Positions 11,510 to 38,877 of a stretch of DNA of 42,439 bases are shown here, piece after piece; position 1 is the stretch's first letter, and each line of letters opens with the position of its first letter. The notes under the pieces were generated by a model, which saw only the letters and a list, made by a program, of their open reading frames with translations, searched no databases and was not told where the DNA came from. A program made the translations under genes and the position numbers. The DNA comes from Campylobacterota bacterium (lineage in GTDB: Bacteria > Campylobacterota > Campylobacteria > Campylobacterales > JAADDX01), in NCBI GenBank assembly GCA_013153685.1, contig JAADDX010000036.1, positions 1 through 42,439 of the forward strand, in the 5' to 3' direction.

Positions 11510-12048
11510 TTATGTGCCTTTATGTATAGACTTATTGTAGTGTATATTTCCTCTATTATATGAAAATCTATTAGTAATTTAGGATTATTTACAATGTCTG
11601 AAATCTTTTCTCTTACTTTTAGAGTATTTGCATAGGTAGTAAAAGAAGAGATTATAAGCGTTTGGATAAAAAAAGGATTAATATCAGTCTCACTCAAAAT
11701 CTCGATTAAGCTTCGGAGTGTTTTTGATACTATTTTTATAGTATCCACTTCCAAATGCTCCATCTCACAAGCAAGCTCTTTTGCAAAAAGCTTCGCCATA
11801 TAAGGATTTTGCAAGAAAAACTCCCCCATGGTATAAATATAATCTTTTAGTTCATTTTTAAATGCAAGACCTTTAAAATGTGAAATGAAAATTTGATTAT
11901 AAATTTCCTTTTTATTTCTGAAATGGTAATAAAGTGCCGGTTTTGTGATGTTTAGCTCTTTTGCTACTTCTTCTAATGAAGTGTTGTCATACCCCTTATT
12001 TGCAAAATGTTTGAGTGCAATTGATAAAATCCTTTGTTTTGTATCCAA
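11506..12048 (-). CDS. TetR-family transcriptional regulator of the RND efflux operon
   Basis: A 180-residue TetR regulator. The N-terminal helix-turn-helix is clear: ALKHFANKGYDNTSLEEVAKEL and LNITKPALYYHFRNKKEIYNQ around residues 10-55 (given in two parts). The C-terminal domain that senses ligand is, as usual, unrecognisable. It is the first gene of the efflux operon, overlapping the channel gene by 4 bases, so it probably represses itself and the pump. A near-perfect 18-bp palindrome 10 bases upstream of its start is the likely operator. The ribosome site is AAGGAGAG. Confidence 0.92.
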   Translation of the reverse strand: MDTKQRILSIALKHFANKGYDNTSLEEVAKELNITKPALYYHFRNKKEIYNQIFISHFKGLAFKNELKDYIYTMGEFFLQNPYMAKLFAKELACEMEHLEVDTIKIVSKTLRSLIEILSETDINPFFIQTLIISSFTTYANTLKVREKISDIVNNPKLLIDFHIIEEIYTTISLYIKAHK

Positions 12049-29345: not shown

Positions 29346-29409
29346 TCACCCTCTAATAGACTGCATTACAAATTTCACAAAAAATATTTATTTTTAAGGA
29401 TAATTTTGC

Positions 29410-29415
29410 TATAAT
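29410..29415 (+). promoter_or_regulatory. -10 box of the chemosensory operon
   Basis: TATAAT in TTTTGCTATAATTACGG, about 180 bases before the first gene. This predicts an unusually long 5' leader for this gene-dense window. Confidence 0.55.
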
Positions 29416-29427
29416 TACGGCATAGCT

Positions 29428-29553
29428 GGTTTTACTCGGAGAAAATCTCGTAAAATCGGTGAAATATATTTCTTTATAACTCGAATTGCCTTATAAAATA
29501 AGATAAGTATCGTTTGTGATACTTCTATCTATAATTCATTTATCTTATTTTAT
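29428..29553 (+). promoter_or_regulatory. structured 5' leader of the chemosensory operon
   Basis: Two strong foldable elements lie between the predicted promoter and the first ATG. Element 1 is TTTTAC(29430-29435)...GTAAAA(29450-29455) enclosing GAGA-AAA-TCTC. Element 2 is a perfect 14-bp stem, ATAAAATAAGATAA (29493-29506) with its complement at 29540-29553, enclosing an inner hairpin AGTATC/GATACT (29506-29523). No T-run terminator follows. I do not recognise a known riboswitch class. It may control translation or stability of the operon. Confidence 0.45.
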
Positions 29554-29596
29554 TGGCGATTTTGGTTATGAAAATTTATATCACAAAGGGATATTT

Positions 29597-31171
29597 ATGT
29601 ATGTATATTACATCAGCGAAGGTAAGTATACTGACCGGAATATAAAGTTGTTAGAGAAGTATATGGATGTAGAGTTTATTCCCAAGAACAAATACGATTC
29701 TATGTATCTTCTCTCAAAAAATCTCCAAGACGCCATAATTATCAGTAACGATATCAATATCCTTCACAGTCTAATTCAAGAGGAGGAAGCAGATATATTG
29801 TTGAGTGTGTATATTTGTGATTGCAACAACACTTGCTTAGAACAATCACTAAAAAAACATATCGATATTTGTTTACCTCCGAAATTTAGCGAGGATAGTA
29901 TACAAGAGTTGGAAAAAAGAGCGGATGAGATGTTGGAAGTGCACCATCTCCAAGAGGAGAAAAAAGAGTTAATTAGAACAAACAAAGTCTTACACGAATC
30001 GATAGAATATGCAGCACTTATTCAATCGGCTTTGTTGCCGGATAATAAGGTTATTAGGAAGTATTTCAATGAGTATTTTGTGATTTGGCATCCTCGTGAT
30101 GGTGTGGGTGGTGATGTGTATTTCTTTGATGACATCTCAGATAAATTAGCACTTTTTGTGATTGCGGATTGTACGGGGCATGGTGTGCCAGGTGCACTTG
30201 TTACTATGATGGTAAGTTCTGTATATAATGAGATTCTTAAGGAAATTTCACACGGAGAGTTACTCTTTTCACCGGGAAATATTTTAAGTGAATTTAATAT
30301 CAAACTCAAAAGATTGCTCAAACAAGAAAAAAGCACGAGCGGAAATATTACAAACGTAGGATTTGATGGGGCTGTTGTTTGTTACAACAAAGAAAAAAAA
30401 GAGTTAAAATACGCTGGGGCTAATTGTCCTTTGTTTTGCGTAAAAGGAAATGAGCTAAAGGTTATTAAGGGTGATAGATTTTCTATCGGTTACAAAGAAA
30501 GTGATACCGGTTTTGTATTTAAAGAACACAAAATTTCATTTGCCCTAAATGAAGATGGTATTATCTATTTAACAACTGACGGTTATATTGATCAAATCGG
30601 TGGTGATAAAGGATTCCCGTTTGGTAAAAAAAGACTTACGAAGTTAATTGAGGAGTATCATTCGTATTCATTGGCTGACCAACAAGAAGTATTTTTGAAT
30701 GCTTTAGAGGAGTACAAAGGAAATCACGACCAAATAGATGATATTACGGTAGTTGCTCTTAGAACTTCAAAAACAATAACCCAAGAAGAAGGGTTATACC
30801 AAAAAGATGAAGACAAAATCAACGTAATGCTTGTGGATGACTCGAGAATTTCAAGAAAAATTATCGGAAGTGTAGTAAAAGAACTCGGTTATAATATAGT
30901 AGCTGAGGCTAAAGACGGTAAAGATGGATTAGAAAAATATAAAAAAGTCCATCCGGATGTTGTGCTTACGGATATTGAGATGCCAGAAATGGATGGATAT
31001 GAGATGGCACAGAAAATTTTAGAATATGATAAAAAAGCGAAAATATTTGTAATTACGTCTATTGTAAATGCTCAATTTATCAAAAAGATCCTATCAATTG
31101 GAGTATTGGATGCTATCAAAAAACCTGTTAACAAACAAAAACTCCAAATGACATTGGAAAAATTCCTATAG
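29597..31171 (+). CDS. SpoIIE-type PP2C serine phosphatase with C-terminal receiver domain
   Basis: A 524-residue soluble protein. Residues 1-100 form an alpha/beta region I cannot name with confidence, followed by a short coiled coil (103-135). The SpoIIE/RsbU-type phosphatase (about 140-395) shows RDGVGGDVYFFDD, VIADCTGHGVPGALVTMMV, YLTTDGYIDQIGG and DQIDDITVVAL, with the metal-binding Asp residues intact. The receiver (405-524) is intact: D414/D415, phospho-acceptor D459, T487 and K509. ATG 29597 is used since AAAGGG precedes it and the in-frame extension upstream lies in the structured leader. It heads an operon with a STAS protein and a full chemosensory set, so CheA probably phosphorylates its receiver and the phosphatase acts on a STAS-type protein. 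Confidence 0.92.
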   Translation: MYVYYISEGKYTDRNIKLLEKYMDVEFIPKNKYDSMYLLSKNLQDAIIISNDINILHSLIQEEEADILLSVYICDCNNTCLEQSLKKHIDICLPPKFSEDSIQELEKRADEMLEVHHLQEEKKELIRTNKVLHESIEYAALIQSALLPDNKVIRKYFNEYFVIWHPRDGVGGDVYFFDDISDKLALFVIADCTGHGVPGALVTMMVSSVYNEILKEISHGELLFSPGNILSEFNIKLKRLLKQEKSTSGNITNVGFDGAVVCYNKEKKELKYAGANCPLFCVKGNELKVIKGDRFSIGYKESDTGFVFKEHKISFALNEDGIIYLTTDGYIDQIGGDKGFPFGKKRLTKLIEEYHSYSLADQQEVFLNALEEYKGNHDQIDDITVVALRTSKTITQEEGLYQKDEDKINVMLVDDSRISRKIIGSVVKELGYNIVAEAKDGKDGLEKYKKVHPDVVLTDIEMPEMDGYEMAQKILEYDKKAKIFVITSIVNAQFIKKILSIGVLDAIKKPVNKQKLQMTLEKFL

Positions 31172-31182
31172 AAAGGTAGCAG

Positions 31183-31434
31183 ATGGCTATTACGTTTACC
31201 CAAAGTGAGTTAACAATAGACAATATAGAGCAAAACTATGATACTATCAAAGCTCATTTGGATGAGAATCCTATCGAGCTTGATTTGGGAAATATCGAAG
31301 TTTTGGATCTAGCGAATATTCAGATGTTTTTGTCGCTAAGGAAATATTGTCACACTCTAAATAAAGAATTCAAGATACAGAATGTAGACTCAAACCAAAT
31401 CAAAGAAGAGTTGAAGTTATTTAAATTAATATAG
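31183..31434 (+). CDS. STAS-domain protein (anti-sigma antagonist-like) lacking the phosphorylatable Ser
   Basis: An 83-residue single-domain protein with the STAS pattern: a strand, IELDLGNIEVLDLANIQMFLSLRKYC around residues 31-56 (given IELDLGNIEVLDL and ANIQMFLSLRKYC), then FKIQNV. In SpoIIAA-type antagonists the loop reads DSSG with a Ser that is phosphorylated. Here it is D42-L-A-N, with no Ser or Thr. So it probably cannot be switched by the usual kinase, or it works as a scaffold. It lies between the PP2C phosphatase (11 bases before) and cheA (10 bases after), so it is likely a partner of the pathway. Start ATG with GAAAGG 6 bases upstream. Confidence 0.8.
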   Translation: MAITFTQSELTIDNIEQNYDTIKAHLDENPIELDLGNIEVLDLANIQMFLSLRKYCHTLNKEFKIQNVDSNQIKEELKLFKLI

Positions 31435-31444
31435 AGGGTTGATT

Positions 31445-33544
31445 ATGAATGAAGATTTGAAACTGTTTTTAGAAGATTCAGAAGAACAATTAGAGACGAT
31501 GGAGGAAGTGCTGATAGATATTACGGAGCTTCCTTCTTTGGATGATGTCACAAAAGATCAAATCAATGCCGTATTTAGAGCGATGCATACCATCAAAGGA
31601 AATGCTGGTATGTTCGGGCTAGATGAGATTGTTTCTTTTACCCACAAAGCGGAGAGCTTGTTGGATAAGGTAAGAAATGATGAGGTGAAGTTGACAAAAG
31701 AGCTTGTGGATCTATTTTTGAAAATCAATGATCACGTGCGAATGCTTGTGGAATTGAGTGTAAATGAACAACAAATGGATGATGACCAAAAAGCCCAACA
31801 TAACGAGCTTTTAGAAGCAATGAAGAAATACTTAGATGCCAAAGAGCCAGTAGTGCCAGTGGCGGATGAAACAGTAGTGGTAGAAGAAGATCAAGCGGAT
31901 TTTGATGGTTATGATATTACGATTGAACTTTACGAAGATTTCTTTCTTAAAAAAGAGGATATTTTCGCTATCTTCAAGTTGTTAGACGTTATTGGAAATA
32001 TTATTGATTTTGAGACTGATGTTTCACGATTGCCAGAATTTGATAAATTAGATCCTAAAAAAGCTTATATCAGATTCCATTTTATGTATCAAAGTGATGA
32101 GACGTTAGAGAATATTGTAGATAATTTTGAATTACTAAAAGGGCTTGTAAATATCGTTATCAAAAAACAATCGCAAGTGGTGTATGAACTAGATCCTCAA
32201 CACCCAATCCAATCATCGCCGCAAGAAGAGCCAAAACCACAAGAAGAAGCAAAACCACAAGACGTTTCGACACCGCCAGAAGCACCAAAAGCACCAGAAG
32301 CACCAAAAGCCCCAGAAGCACCAAAACCGCAAGAAGCAGCCAAAGCCGCTCCTCCAGCAAAAAAACAAGAGAAAAAGTCGTACACTCTAAGAGTTAATTC
32401 AGAAAAAGTAGATATGCTGATGAATAAAATCAGTGAAATGGTTATCCTAAATGCTAGATTGATTCAATACGCGATGGATAAGAATGATTTTGAATTAGAA
32501 GAAAATGTTCTTAAGATGAGCGATTTGATTGAGAAAATTCGTGATGGTGTAATGAATATTAGAATGGTGCAAGTTGGGGATAGTTTTGCGAAATTTAGAA
32601 GAATTATCCTTGAAACTGCCAAAAAAGTAGGAAAAGATGTACATTTTGAAATTGTAGGTGGTGATACTGAACTTGATAAAAGTATGGTAGAAAAAATCAC
32701 GGATCCACTTATTCATATATTAAGAAATAGCGTAGATCACGGGATCGAGACTCCAGAGGAGAGAGTAGCCAAAGGTAAACCACCAAGAGGGACTATTATT
32801 CTCAAAGCTTATCCGGATTCAGGGATGATTGTTATTGAAATTAGTGATGATGGTAGAGGTATCAATAAAGATAGAATTTTACAAAAAGCTATCGAAAAAG
32901 GTATCGTACCAAAAGATGCTAACCTAAGTGAGCGAGATATTTACAATCTTATGTTTGCTCCAGGTATCTCGACAGCGGATAAGATTTCTGATATATCTGG
33001 TCGTGGTGTTGGGATGGATGTAGTTAAGAAAAATATCGATTCACTAAGAGGCTCTATCGATATTCAAAGTGAGATTGATAAAGGAACGAAAATTACTATT
33101 AGACTTCCTTTAACGCTTGCTATTATCGATGGATTTTTAGTGAAAGTAGCAAATGTGAAGTATGTAATACCTCTAGAGCTTATCAAAGAGTGTATCGAGC
33201 TTACTCCAACTCAAAAAGAAAAAGTGCAAAAACACGGTTATATTGCACTAAGAAAGAAAATTTTACCGATTCTTGATATGAAAGAGTTTTTCGAGATTAA
33301 AACCGATAAGTCATTAAGAGAAAATATCGTAATTGTAAGATATGGAAATCTGGAAGTAGGATTGTTGGTGGATGAGTTTTATGGAGAATTCCAAACAGTA
33401 ATCAAGCCGTTGGGCGAATTGTTTGAAAAAGTACAAGGAATTTCAGGAGGAACGATTCTCGGAAGTGGAGAAGTAGGGTTGATTTTTGATATTCCAAGAC
33501 TAATAGAATACAGAATAGCATTAGAACTAAAAAAAGGAGAATAA
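31445..33544 (+). CDS. cheA: chemotaxis histidine kinase CheA (no receiver domain)
   Basis: A 699-residue CheA. P1/HPt: H48 in [20 protein letters not shown]2-like alpha/beta region covers about 155-240. A Pro/Ala/Glu/Lys linker (about 256-311) contains tandem repeats. P3 dimerisation begins [18 protein letters not shown]. The P4 ATPase has the N box [16 protein letters not shown]1 [16 protein letters not shown] and [10 protein letters not shown]5 is CheW-like to the C-terminus. Unlike the main flagellar CheA of Campylobacter and Helicobacter, there is no C-terminal receiver, which marks this as an accessory system. Start ATG 31445 (AGAGGG 6 bases upstream), not the TTG at 31439. Confidence 0.95.
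32276..32329 (+). repeat. three tandem 18-bp repeats in the cheA linker
   Basis: Three near-identical 18-base units (CCAGAAGCACCAAAAGCA and variants, at 32276, 32294 and 32312) encode repeated PEAPKA in the CheA P2-P3 linker. Unit number may vary between strains by slippage without breaking the frame. Confidence 0.8.
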
Positions 33545-33545
33545 A

Positions 33546-34937
33546 ATGGGAAAAAAGAAAAAAAATAATGACGTAATACAAATTTCAAAAAGAGACTTCG
33601 AAGAATTAATGTCGTATCTATCTGAGATTGAGGATGGTAATTTTGATGCGAAATTAACAGTATCTGGCGATGAAGCATTTGTTATAGGTAAGAAAATTTC
33701 TGGAATAGTAGCAAATATTAAACATTTCGAGGAAGATATCTCAAAAGTAGCACTTGATGCACTAAAAGGTAACTTAACTTCGTATGTAAATGCAAGCAGA
33801 TATAAAGGTGTGTTTTTTGATATGGCAAGTAAGCTAAATGAATTTGTAGAGCTTGTAGATAAAGCCGTAAAAGATATTTTAGGTGCAACAATAGCTCTTC
33901 AAGAAGGTGATTTTGATAAGAGAATTACCAATGAATATAGTGGTGAATTCAATATCCTCAAAGATGCTATCAATACTACAGCTCATACGTTGGCAAATTT
34001 CGTAACCGATGTGAATTATCTTACACAACAAGTATTAGAAGGACATCTAAATACTAAAATCGATGAATTCAAATATAAAGCAGGGTATGGAGTAATTGTA
34101 AGAAATATCAACTCAGTAGCGGCAACGTTACAGCAAATTATCAATAGAATCAAAGAAGCGACAGATGAAATAGCTGATGCGGCAACTAGTATCTCATCAA
34201 CAGCACAAGTTATTTCTTCTGGTGCGGAAGAGCAAGCAAATTCACTCGAAGAGATTGGAACAAGTGTGGAAGAGATTAGTGGTGGTATTAGCGAAACGGC
34301 TAAAAACACTCAAAGAACTAAAGAGGTAGCAAAAGAATCAGCTAATATTGCTGAACAAGGAAGTAGTGCTGTATTAAAAACTGTTGAAGCGATGGAGAAA
34401 ATTGCGGAGGAGATTAGAATTATTGAAGATATTGTATATCAAACCAACTTGCTTGCACTTAATGCAGCAATTGAAGCGGCAAGAGCTGGGGAACATGGGA
34501 AAGGATTTGCGGTTGTTGCAGCAGAAGTTAGAAAACTTGCAAGAAGAAGCCAAACAGCTGCGGAAAAAATCTCTAAAATTACCAAAGATAGCGTAGATAT
34601 CTCAAAAGAAGCAGGAGAGCTTATCAAAAGTATGCTGCCAAAAATCGAAGAAACGGCTACGCTTATTAATGATATTTCAAATGCGACCAAAGAACAAGAA
34701 ATCGGTATTAGTCAGATTAATACGGCAATTGGTGAGCTAAATAACATTGCTCAGTCTAACTTAAATGAGGCAAATTCATTAGCATCATCAAGCGAAGAGT
34801 TAACATCACAAACATCTGAGGTTAGCAAAATTTTATCAAGATTTGACTTAGGAAGCGGTATTAGTTATCAAAAAGAACAACCATCACAAAGCCAATCATC
34901 ATCTGAATTTGATTTGAGAAATTTTGAAAGATTTTAA
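33546..34937 (+). CDS. soluble multi-HAMP methyl-accepting chemotaxis protein
   Basis: A 463-residue receptor without signal peptide or TM segment, so cytoplasmic. Residues 15-205 hold about three HAMP-like repeats, each with an [10 protein letters not shown] / [18 protein letters not shown] / [10 protein letters not shown] type connector. The signalling domain follows, with long Gln/Glu/Ala-rich adaptation helices and the hairpin tip [20 protein letters not shown] (about 300-319) and [17 protein letters not shown]. The protein ends RNFERF. The last five residues NFERF fit the CheR/CheB tether pattern (aromatic, two residues, aromatic; NWETF in E. coli Tar). No ligand domain is recognisable, so the input may come through the HAMP chain or a partner. 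It sits between cheA and cheW. Confidence 0.93.
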
Positions 34938-34939
34938 AA

Positions 34940-35401
34940 ATGCAAAGATATTTATTATTCAAACTAAACGATGAAGTTTATGCAATAAATTCATCGGAAA
35001 TTAGAGAGATTATCGATTATACGCAAATTACTCCTATACCAAAGATTAATACGGCGGTTTTAGGAGTGGCGAATATTAGAGGAGAGTTGTATGGTGTAAT
35101 TGATCTTAAAAAAAGATTAAACCTACCCCCTCGTCAGCTTACCAATAGAGCGTCGTTTGTTTTGGTAAATGCGTATGGACAAAAAGATAATCAAAAAGTA
35201 GCCCTTTTAGTAGATAGCGTAGAAGAGGTTACGGAAGTAAGAGAACGCGACGTGTTAGCACCTGTGGAATTTGGGACAAAAATCGATATTAAATTTGTAG
35301 AAAATATTATTCGCTATGGCGATAAAGAAAATGAATATGCGATAGCTTTAAAAATGCCGGTTGTGGTGGATTTGGAAGAATTATCAAAAACAAAGGATTA
35401 A
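34940..35401 (+). CDS. cheW: chemotaxis coupling protein CheW
   Basis: A 153-residue CheW that bridges receptor tips and CheA. Markers are YLLFKLNDEVYAINSSEIRE, ITPIPKINTAVLGVANIRGE and GVIDLKKRLNLPP. Its length is normal. It begins 2 bases after the receptor stop and ends 1 base before cheV, so all are in one transcript. Confidence 0.95.
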   Translation: MQRYLLFKLNDEVYAINSSEIREIIDYTQITPIPKINTAVLGVANIRGELYGVIDLKKRLNLPPRQLTNRASFVLVNAYGQKDNQKVALLVDSVEEVTEVRERDVLAPVEFGTKIDIKFVENIIRYGDKENEYAIALKMPVVVDLEELSKTKD

Positions 35402-35402
35402 G

Positions 35403-36362
35403 ATGGGGCTTGGATTTGATGATGAAATAAACGAAGAAGAATTGGATTTATTGGAGATTGTTACTGCCGATACGAAGAATATGACAAGTCAGTTTCTTAT
35501 CTTTAGAGACTATAGGGATGAGCTCTTTGCTATTAACGTATCTAAGATTAGGGAGTTGTTGGAATTTCATGAGATTGACATGATTAGAAATGACAAGGCA
35601 AAAGGATATGTAAAGGCAACTGCCGATGTGAGAGGAAATCTGATACCTATTGTGTATTTTGATGAATGGTATAGCAATGAGAGATTGGATGATAAAGAAT
35701 ACAGACTTGTCGTATTGGCAAGTTTTGGTGGACATGAGTTTGGTATAGTTGTAAAAAATGTGGAATATATTGCCACAATCTTGCCGGAGTATATGCAAGA
35801 GAGTAATGACAAAGAGCTTAAAGCTACATTCGTAGCTAAAATCAGACTTGATGGTAAAAATTACTTGTGTACAATCTTTGACGGTGATAAGATGCTATTG
35901 GATATCTTTGAAGAAACTCAAGCCGGAGCGAAGACAGAAGATGTAGAGGATTTTGAGCATGATAATAAAACGAAATTTATCCTTTTTGCCGATGATTCTA
36001 AGTTTGTAAGAAATATTGTAGGAAATACTATCAAAAAAATGGGAATTCCTTACAAAGTGTTTGAAAACGGAAAAGAGTTGTTAGCAGAATTGGAGAAAAT
36101 GAATCCGGACGAAGTGGGACTTGTTATTACCGACTTGGAAATGCCGGTGATGGATGGAAAGGCGTTAATTAGTGAGATTAGACAACGCCCAGAATTTGAT
36201 AAACTCCATATTTTAGTGCATACAAATATGAGTAATGATGTATTAACTGAATCATTAATCGAGGCTGGAGCAACAGAAGTAATAGCTAAAATCAACGCCA
36301 AAAGATTATCAAAGAAAATAGAGAAGTATTATGCAAAAGATAGAGTTACTAACGCTGAATGA
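35403..36362 (+). CDS. cheV: chemotaxis coupling protein CheV (CheW-receiver fusion)
   Basis: A 319-residue protein with an N-terminal CheW-like domain (about 25-175: SQFLIFRDYRDELFAINVSK, DVRGNLIPIVYFDEWY) and a C-terminal receiver (about 192-315). The receiver has the acidic pair FADDSKFVR, phospho-Asp D244 in VITDLEMPVMDGK, the Thr in LVHTNMSND and Lys in VIAKINAKR, so it should accept phosphate from CheA, as a sink or adaptation device. ATG 35403 is used; an in-frame upstream start would lie within cheW. CheV is common in Campylobacterota. It overlaps cheR by 32 bases. Confidence 0.94.
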   Translation: MGLGFDDEINEEELDLLEIVTADTKNMTSQFLIFRDYRDELFAINVSKIRELLEFHEIDMIRNDKAKGYVKATADVRGNLIPIVYFDEWYSNERLDDKEYRLVVLASFGGHEFGIVVKNVEYIATILPEYMQESNDKELKATFVAKIRLDGKNYLCTIFDGDKMLLDIFEETQAGAKTEDVEDFEHDNKTKFILFADDSKFVRNIVGNTIKKMGIPYKVFENGKELLAELEKMNPDEVGLVITDLEMPVMDGKALISEIRQRPEFDKLHILVHTNMSNDVLTESLIEAGATEVIAKINAKRLSKKIEKYYAKDRVTNAE

Positions 36363-37128
36363 TTTTACATCTTTTCAAGATTTGATTTTAAAAGAGACGG
36401 GTATTAAATTGTCAAATACCAAAAGGACTCTTTTACAAACCAAAATCTTAGAGAGGATGAAAATCAAAAAAATAAAAACATTTAAAGAATATTACCATTA
36501 TATACTCAAGCACCCAGATGAAAAGGCATATGTGATCAATTTTGCCACTACGAATGAGACATATTTTTTTCGTGAAAAGAGACATTTGGAATTTTTCAAA
36601 AAACATGTGGCTCTTGAACTACCAAAGATTAGGCTTTGGTCTGCTGCAGCAAGTGTCGGAGCAGAAGCTTATACTCTAGCGATGATTTTAAAAGAACTTG
36701 GTAGGCAATTTGAGATTATTGGAACAGATATTAATCATGAAGTAATCCATAAAGCCAGACAAGGTGTATATCCTATCACTTGGGCTAAAAATATCCCAGA
36801 TGAATATCTCAAAAAATACTGTTTACGCGGTAAGAACGACTATAAGGGATGGTTTATGATAGGAAATGCAATTAAGAAAAATGTGAAATTCAAAGTTGCG
36901 AATTTATTATACCCACAAAAGGATTTGGGATTGTTTGATGTGATTTTTCTCAAAAACGTTTTGATTTATTTTGATGATAAAACCAAGAAAAAAGTAGTAG
37001 AGAATGTATTGCACAATCTCAAGACAGACGGATATTTGTTTATCTCTCTAACAGAAAATATAGATCACTTAAAAATCGATAGATTACACAAAGTAGATTC
37101 TTCCGTATACCAACTAAAGGACAACTGA
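36331..37128 (+). CDS. cheR: chemoreceptor methyltransferase CheR
   Basis: A 265-residue SAM-dependent methyltransferase that methylates receptor glutamates. N-terminal helical domain about 1-75, TTNETYFFREKRHLEFF, SAM motif LWSAAASVGAEAYTLAMIL (a variant of the usual WSAACSSGEEPYS), GTDINHEVIHKARQGVYP and FDVIFLKNVLIYFDD (Lys where Arg is common). The start lies 32 bases inside cheV. It ends on the A of the next ATG (TGATG), tightly coupled to the ParA-like gene. It probably docks on the receptor's NFERF tail. Confidence 0.94.
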   Translation: MQKIELLTLNDFTSFQDLILKETGIKLSNTKRTLLQTKILERMKIKKIKTFKEYYHYILKHPDEKAYVINFATTNETYFFREKRHLEFFKKHVALELPKIRLWSAAASVGAEAYTLAMILKELGRQFEIIGTDINHEVIHKARQGVYPITWAKNIPDEYLKKYCLRGKNDYKGWFMIGNAIKKNVKFKVANLLYPQKDLGLFDVIFLKNVLIYFDDKTKKKVVENVLHNLKTDGYLFISLTENIDHLKIDRLHKVDSSVYQLKDN

Positions 37129-37925
37129 TGAAGAAGAAATTGAAATTTATTACAATTTCAAGCAAAGGGGGAGTTGGTAAAAGTGCTATTTCCATGCAGG
37201 TGCTTGCTCCCTATTTATATGAGAAAAACAAGCAAAAAAAGATAGATTATTTTGAGTTTGATGATGAAAATATAGATTTGTTAAGTTATGGTGATAGTAA
37301 CCTTACAAAAAGGGAACAAGTAGAAATCGAGGAATTTATTATTGTAGATAAATTAATAGAAGTTTTTTCTAAAAAGGGAGCGTGTGTGGTGGATGTAGGC
37401 GGTAACCGTTCTGCATCGATTATATTAGAAGCTATTGAGACAAGTGGAATAGGGGAGCTTATTGATATGGCTGTAATTCCTATGCTTGATGGTGAGCAAG
37501 ATGCTATTAACGCCAAAAAAGTATACGACAAACTAAAAAGTGCCAATCCAAATATGAATATCGTATTTGCACTCAATAGAGTTATTAATCCAAAGTATTT
37601 AGAGTATCAATTTGAAAATTTCTTTGGGGATATTAGAGGGATTTTTAAGAATATTTTTTATTTACAAAGCTATATTGATCATAAAGACAACTATATCGCC
37701 ATAGAAAACAGCGACCTTATCAAATTTAGTAGAAGATTTGGGATCACCATATACGAAATAGCAAATTCCAACAGGGATTTTACTACTCAGATAAAAAACC
37801 ATGACGATATTAACGAAGCCAAACTTTTGATGTTTAAAAACTATATTTACCAAAATTCCAAGAAATATTACCAAACAACAATTAAAAGGTGTTTTGATAA
37901 GTTTGAGGAAATCTTGAATGATTAA
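37128..37925 (+). CDS. diverged ParA/MinD-like ATPase of the chemosensory operon
   Basis: A 265-residue P-loop ATPase with the deviant Walker A SKGGVGKSA (K13 and K18) and a Walker B/switch II-like CVVDVGGNRSASI. FEFDDEN near residue 48 resembles the A' region, with Asp residues as in MobD/TraL-type relatives rather than typical ParA. The last 80 residues show no family signature. It lies between cheR and cheB, with its end overlapping cheB by 8 bases. In Rhodobacter sphaeroides a ParA homologue (PpfA) partitions the cytoplasmic chemoreceptor cluster, and in Vibrio ParC positions polar arrays. A similar role for this soluble-receptor system is an inference. No ParB is present. Confidence 0.82.
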   Translation: MKKKLKFITISSKGGVGKSAISMQVLAPYLYEKNKQKKIDYFEFDDENIDLLSYGDSNLTKREQVEIEEFIIVDKLIEVFSKKGACVVDVGGNRSASIILEAIETSGIGELIDMAVIPMLDGEQDAINAKKVYDKLKSANPNMNIVFALNRVINPKYLEYQFENFFGDIRGIFKNIFYLQSYIDHKDNYIAIENSDLIKFSRRFGITIYEIANSNRDFTTQIKNHDDINEAKLLMFKNYIYQNSKKYYQTTIKRCFDKFEEILND

Positions 37926-38877
37926 GATTTTTTTAATTGACGCTTCTATTAAAAATAGAACTCTAATCAAGCAATATTTAGCTTTTGAGAAAGATATCAA
38001 AGTAATAGGCGAAGCAAATGATCCAATCGATGCCATGAAGGTATTTTCAGCGGTTGGATTGCCGGATGTGTTTTTGGTAAGTGCACATTTAGAGAAAATA
38101 TCGATTTTTGATTTTTTAAAAAAACTCAAAGAACAAAGACCGATTCCAACAATTGTTTATGCCGATATAGCCGATAAGTTGATGGTGCAAAGATTGTATG
38201 ATGCTGGTGCTACGAAGGTAATCCCTCAGCCAATAGAGAGTGATACGAATTATCGTTATGCACTCTTAACGGCGATTCGTGCAATCAAAATCAAAACATT
38301 AAATATCAAGCCAATTAACAAGATTATTGCTATTGGCTCATCTACAGGTGGTGTTCAAGCACTTGAGGAAATTATTAAGCGTCTTAAAAAAAATCATGCA
38401 CCCATTATCATAACCCAACACATGCCAAGCGATTTTACCGGCTCTTTTGCGAAGCGGCTGACATCTTTATACAAAAATACGTATGTCAAAGAAGCGGAAG
38501 ATTTTGATGAATTGGCTGTGGGTCGAGTACTGCTAGCCCCTGGAAATAAACATATGGAAGTTATTAAAAAAGGCAACGGTTATCAGGTAATCCTAAAAGA
38601 TTATCCAAAAGTAAACGGACACAAACCAAGTATTGATGTTATGTTTGATTCTGTAGCTAGAGAAGTAGGAGATAAGGCAGTGGCGTTTTTGCTTACTGGT
38701 ATGGGCAAAGACGGTGCTTTGGGTCTAAAGAAAATTAGAGAAGCTGGAGGTATTACTTATGCACAAGATGAACAATCAAGTATCGTATACGGTATGCCAA
38801 AAGTAGCCAATGAGATCGGTGCGGCACGATATGTAGTCCCACTAAAAGATATCGCAAATATTATCAACGCTTACTAG
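37918..38877 (+). CDS. cheB: chemoreceptor methylesterase CheB with a degenerate receiver domain
   Basis: A 319-residue CheB. The C-terminal methylesterase is intact: S142 in [12 protein letters not shown]168 in [18 protein letters not shown]265 in [16 protein letters not shown]. The N-terminal region (1-120) has receiver fold spacing but lost the chemistry: the acidic pair is D8-A9 (FLIDAS), the phospho-acceptor position is S55 ([10 protein letters not shown]), the Thr/Ser position is A82 (VYADIAD) and the Lys position is Q104 (VIPQPIES). So it should not be activated by CheA phosphorylation. Campylobacter and Helicobacter relatives often lack the receiver altogether in CheB, so this may be an intermediate state or a protein-binding pseudo-receiver. 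Confidence 0.94.

Follow-up and report, generated by a model that had tools for sequence, protein, structure and literature searches.

Upstream of the chemosensory operon of this Campylobacterota bacterium lies a long leader that is predicted to fold almost entirely into two hairpins, the second of which reaches about 50 pairs. The observation of a long structured leader is confirmed as real and statistically strong. The preferred reading, to which a probability of roughly 40% is given, is that of a lineage-specific double-stranded 5'UTR that would act post-transcriptionally, possibly through RNase III or through translation initiation. The window (the whole stretch of DNA that was analysed, 42,439 nt) is contig 68 in a 1.30-Mb draft genome of 92 contigs that is 90% complete. 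Among the genomes compared, the family of the host holds one other genome (G001) and its genus none. The leader region sits between the end of an upstream ORF (29324), which we take to be rplT, and the chemosensory operon. The following features are referred to below:

29404..29415, forward strand: near-perfect predicted sigma-70 promoter TTTTGCTATAAT, with the -10 at 29410-29415 (promoter matrix)
29422..29596, forward strand: predicted 5' leader of about 175 nt, the start being assumed 6-7 bases past the -10
29425..29460, forward strand: hairpin 1, with 11 + 4 pairs around a 3-base bulge (15 pairs), -12.9 kcal/mol when folded alone
29459..29584, forward strand: long imperfect inverted repeat or hairpin, 126 nt, about 50 pairs
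29493-29506 / 29540-29553, forward strand: core perfect 14-bp stem, enclosing GTATC/GATAC (29507-29522)
29513..29521, forward strand: apical UUUGUGAUA, perfect complement of 29579-29587, a speculative alternative pairing
29585..29590, forward strand: ribosome-binding site AAAGGG (read from the sequence), with the ATG (29597) 6 bases downstream
29597..31171, forward strand: first operon gene, a SpoIIE phosphatase + receiver domain fusion of 524 aa (Pfam)
31183..38877, forward strand: remaining operon, encoding STAS, CheA, MCP, CheW, CheV, CheR, ParA-like and CheB proteins (Pfam; ParA-like by eye)

The preliminary description had put about 180 bases between the -10 and the first ATG, and indeed 181 bases separate the end of TATAAT (29415) from the ATG. 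With a matrix derived from 35 further promoters of this genome, picked by hand, TTTTGCTATAAT scored 25.4 (training median: 21.7), and a score of at least 25.4 is found at about 1 in 100,000 (a rounded figure) of 461,328 background positions. Because the same TGnTAnAAT pattern had served to find the training sites, this score is partly circular and is not independent proof. The runner-up between 29340 and 29599 reached 7.4 and is located upstream of the promoter, and no position inside the leader (29416 to 29599) scored above 1.3. A start close to the ATG, which would undo the idea of a long leader, thus receives no support from the matrix as a predicted sigma-70 start. It could still be argued that transcription truly starts downstream, from a sigma-28 promoter or an internal -10, which would leave most of the hairpin outside the mRNA. 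A TATAAT is present within the leader at 29530-29535, as is a CGATTT at 29557, which was set against the sigma-28 consensus. However, these scores inside the leader are far from the 25.4 of the promoter ending at 29415, and a full sigma-28 match with CGATTT was not found at up to 6 mismatches from that consensus. A downstream start is accordingly regarded as very unlikely.

The claim that most leaders measure 20-50 bases broadly holds. In 231 kb of the genome (ORFs of at least 90 aa), 45 sites of the TGnTAnAAT class were flagged as intergenic. Seven of these, the present leader included, lie at least 100 nt from the first ATG or start, and the rest are much closer. By eye, a small ORF was found nearer to the promoter at two of the long-leader sites (L174 and L160) and another -10 nearer to the gene at two more (L178 and position 12030 of the window). 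Another long-leader site precedes a short gene under the ORF cut-off, presumably rpmI, and yet another falls in the 3' end of rplT. For C. jejuni, a published survey reports 471 5'UTRs of 0-158 nt with a mean of 30.6 (PMC3847290); the predicted leader of about 175 nt would be longer than all of them.

Both stems that had been described for the first hairpin are found, namely TTTTAC/GTAAAA (29430-29435 / 29450-29455) and GAGA/TCTC (GAGA at 29439, TCTC at 29446). The perfect 14-bp stem also stands, whereas the GTATC/GATAC hairpin enclosed by it is recognised by eye and gives way to a different apical pairing in the minimum-energy fold. The structure had in fact been understated, since this 14-bp stem forms the core of the inverted repeat 29459-29584. 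The two hairpins take up almost all of the leader, and the long one ends directly before the ribosome-binding site; the structure is thus placed exactly between the 25.4-scoring promoter and that site. The sense RNA of the repeat folds at -39.8 kcal/mol and forms 50 pairs, of which 6 are G-U; the antisense RNA reaches -28.3 kcal/mol with 42 pairs and 1 G-U.

The fold is far stronger than expected by chance. For the leader (29422-29600) a z of -6.26 was obtained and for the repeat (29457-29586) a z of -7.69, and in neither case did any of 200 shuffles do as well. Within 231,546 bases sampled from this genome, the leader is the second-best peak by GC-corrected energy among 35,226 windows, and 29459-29584 is the best Watson-Crick inverted-repeat peak among 12,699 windows (46 vs 44 for the next). 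The second-best inverted repeat of the sample (36360-36466) is located in coding sequence of the same operon, at the cheV/cheR junction, and folds with a z of -5.65 in sense and -4.89 in antisense. Such repeats therefore also occur outside leaders, and the 29459-29584 repeat stands at the far end of a continuous tail instead of forming a class of its own. The top GC-corrected fold of the sample lies at a contig end (L160, 1-130, minus strand). By eye, a promoter-like TTATAAT is accompanied there by a stem and by a hairpin with a U-run that resembles a terminator; an Rfam match was not found for this fold, which is possibly a small RNA.

The main rival, close behind the preferred reading, is a palindromic insertion or inverted duplication (e.g. 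a decayed miniature inverted-repeat element) that has no role and of which the long leader would be a mere by-product. Such an origin would fit a repeat of about 126 nt that is almost symmetric from end to end. It would also fit the confinement of the repeat to this one locus and its absence from eight examined orthologous operons, as well as the comparable inverted repeats elsewhere in the 231-kb sample. A miniature element would, however, be expected in several copies, whereas no further copy of the leader was found in its own genome, of which 90% is covered. An obvious target duplication was not seen by eye either. In phages and plasmids only short leader matches were obtained (E 0.2-0.6), and an exact 26-base leader pattern gave 0 matches in viral contigs.

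The mismatches between the two arms also speak against an insertion without a role, though they are few. In a decaying DNA palindrome, G-T and A-C mismatches are expected to be about equally frequent, while G-U is tolerated where selection acts on the sense RNA. The arm alignment contains 6 G-U and 0 A-C on the sense strand (next to 7 mismatches of other kinds and 9 columns with gaps), and a stricter alignment contains 4 G-U and 0 A-C (4 other mismatches, 3 gap columns). A helix that is of importance as sense RNA should shift the mismatches in this direction, and the bias is suggestive of RNA-level selection, although the signal is small. The difference in folding energy between the strands proved a weaker argument. 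A difference of 11.5 kcal/mol is matched in 14% of all windows and in 43% of 63 strongly folding low-GC windows, and is thus ordinary for this genome.

It had been stated that no known riboswitch was recognisable, and no Rfam family indeed reached its gathering score in the leader. The sole match at E<=10 was a spurious microRNA model (E 1.8, 16.8 bits against a cut-off of 83), and over the whole window Rfam returned a tRNA only. By DNA similarity, a search of 149 genomes (own included) gave a full-length match in the own window only. Some match at E<=1 was obtained in 142 of these 149 genomes (again with the own genome counted), but among the matches listed those outside the window were short, spanning up to about 62 query bases, and the best non-self match had an E of 2.7e-5 over 31 bases. 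This same 31-base match, in G082, was the only one besides the own genome at E<=1e-4 in 397 genomes of the phylum (own included). A covariance model built from the single leader sequence was likewise run with stricter filters on 100 genomes (own included), where it found its own locus and the antisense of it only. In 30 loci it returned, apart from the own locus and the antisense of it (E 0.013), two matches at chance level (E 6.6 and 8.1). The sets of 149, 397 and 100 genomes overlap. Among the genomes searched, the leader would thus be lineage-specific, having been found so far in this lineage alone. That no recognisable homologue turned up in these genomes, leaving no second sequence in which to look for covariation, counts against a functional leader.

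The orthologous operons point in the same direction. CheA orthologues with 48-50% identity are encoded in G043, G124, G041, G001 and G042. Thirteen orthologous loci were fetched and the upstream regions of eight were examined, L155-L159 being compared by tblastn only. The leader is absent upstream of all eight. Five of their upstream folds have a z between -1.2 and 0.5, and the remaining three reach -2.38 (L151), -3.38 (L153) and -5.11 (L154). By eye, L151 and L154 each have a compact hairpin close to where the upstream gene ends, while the hairpin of L153 lies between divergent genes. By the same 200-nt measure, the leader region has a z of -4.95, comparable to the unrelated hairpin of L154, and a strong fold upstream of such an operon is therefore not in itself unique.

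The head of the operon differs as well. In each of the eight examined loci, CheA is preceded by a CheY-like receiver ORF and by a small ORF in the place of STAS (L148 alone showed similarity to STAS as such), whereas the operon described here starts with the SpoIIE-receiver fusion. When the fusion was used as query, its receiver part was matched in these loci, not its phosphatase domain. A contig scan with the same protein kept 80 loci, and the best segments listed all fall in residues 336-524, mainly the receiver domain; the scan was uninformative as to the leader. Database matches to the full protein, among those listed, start at residue 67 at least, and a search of the 397 phylum genomes with the first 201 aa gave matches at E 1e-25 that start at residue 95 at least. 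Upstream regions could be folded for 17 of 32 SpoIIE homologue loci, the others running off the locus or having too little upstream sequence. Two of the 17 gave a z below -3, namely L033 (-4.77) and L044 (-3.51). Neither upstream region resembles the leader by eye, and the ORF list shows a different gene neighbourhood for L033.

Several conventional roles could be discarded for the leader. Within 29416-29596, nothing terminator-like was listed by a simple consensus scan, and the hairpins are not followed by a T-run, so the leader is not an ordinary terminator; as an intrinsic terminator or attenuator, it lacks the combination of a GC-containing stem and a U-run. By eye, no start codon with a ribosome-binding site is present in 29422-29596. 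The leader is thus not a peptide attenuator for lack of such a small ORF.

A quite unlikely role is that of an RNA sensor, be it a riboswitch of a new class or an RNA thermometer, that would control the operon. What invites this idea is that a long structured leader adjoins the ribosome-binding site and that the nine apical bases of UUUGUGAUA are perfectly complementary to a segment (29579-29587) that overlaps the start of this site. For that 9-mer, which was chosen after the fact, a shuffle P of 0.0028 was obtained. With the alternative pairing, the fold reaches -52.1 instead of -49.7 kcal/mol, yet this gain of 2.4 kcal/mol is counted before any pseudoknot cost, and the two partners would be separated by about 33 stacked pairs. 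Given the weak net gain and the doubtful geometry, the pairing is kept as speculation only. The absence of an Rfam match also argues against a sensor, and the leader is neither repeated elsewhere in the genome nor does it offer a conserved loop to judge. A thermometer was rejected in particular: the predicted exposure of the ribosome-binding site would be 0.66 at 10 C and 0.54 at 45 C, and between 10 and 65 C it keeps within 0.52-0.66, without any melting.

The earlier suggestion of an RNA regulatory element can hence be retained in part. The long structured leader is well supported, while a regulatory role is plausible only and unproven, and nothing in the analysis speaks for an involvement of signalling nucleotides or stress. 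While the potential to fold, its statistical extremity and a strong promoter prediction upstream have been shown, we infer that the leader is transcribed as such and is functional, with RNase III or translation as its point of action. The 5'UTR of the operon mRNA would then be a lineage-specific structured RNA, in which a 5' hairpin is followed by a hairpin of about 50 pairs before the ribosome-binding site. It would act post-transcriptionally, after the start of transcription. RNase III, which is encoded in the genome, would cut the long double-stranded stem; alternatively, the base of the stem beside the ribosome-binding site would modulate the access of the ribosome. These effects are favoured because no terminator, peptide or known family was found, because RNase III is present and because pre-CJnc190 (see below) offers a model. 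What counts against them is a predicted fold that leaves the ribosome-binding site largely accessible (P unpaired about 0.6).

Leader hairpins that are cut by RNase III are known from the E. coli pnp and rnc mRNAs, both RNA-metabolism genes with autoregulation. As in these mRNAs, a long hairpin lies here between the promoter and the first gene, but the connection to RNA metabolism and autoregulation is absent for the chemosensory operon. The nearest published model is pre-CJnc190 of C. jejuni, described in PMC8687705 as a precursor of 186 nt that has a 5' hairpin as well as a long duplex and is processed by RNase III. The leader is similar in length (about 175 against 186 nt), in having a 5' hairpin and a long intramolecular duplex, and in the presence of RNase III. 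Unlike the leader, CJnc190 is a small RNA with an antisense partner according to the same text, and here the hairpin abuts the ribosome-binding site of a coding gene without a terminator, with RNase III processing being putative.

Another C. jejuni leader suggests a different mode of action. CsrA binds GGA motifs in flagellar leaders of C. jejuni (PMC4894983), and this precedent could be extended to a leader controlled by CsrA and FliW, as for flaA. One CsrA and two FliW proteins are encoded in the genome (L191, L192 and L193), and the flaA leader likewise has two stem-loops before a motility-related gene. The flaA leader is 45 nt long, however, carries ANGGA in both loops and shows compensatory changes in other Campylobacter (PMC4894983), compared to about 175 nt here with GGA outside the loops. 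Only two GGA were found, one of them within ANGGA: that at 29438 is half in a stem and that at 29589 is expected as part of the ribosome-binding site letters, and neither lies in a hexaloop. Control by CsrA-FliW is regarded as the least probable of the explanations considered.

If functional, the leader with its putative RNase III or translational effect would be a point at which a chemosensory operon is controlled post-transcriptionally, in a group whose 5'UTRs are very short. Among the 5'UTRs of C. jejuni, a TPP riboswitch was the only one detected (PMC3847290). In the literature, for which coverage of subscription journals was thin, a structured leader was not found to be reported for any chemosensory operon of this group. 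As it stands, the leader is a well-defined candidate rather than a demonstrated regulator. A bolder and unlikely scenario would be that the SpoIIE-receiver protein replaced CheY and that the operon also gained a hairpin resembling a miRNA precursor, from which RNase III would excise a regulatory RNA while setting expression. If true, this would be a dual-function leader not seen in any of the searched relatives.

A minor observation concerns the ParA-like protein encoded between cheR and cheB (37128-37922). No Pfam match was found for it at 0.001, and a Walker A motif is recognisable by eye. Relatives with 39-49% identity are present in loci L150 and L156-L158.
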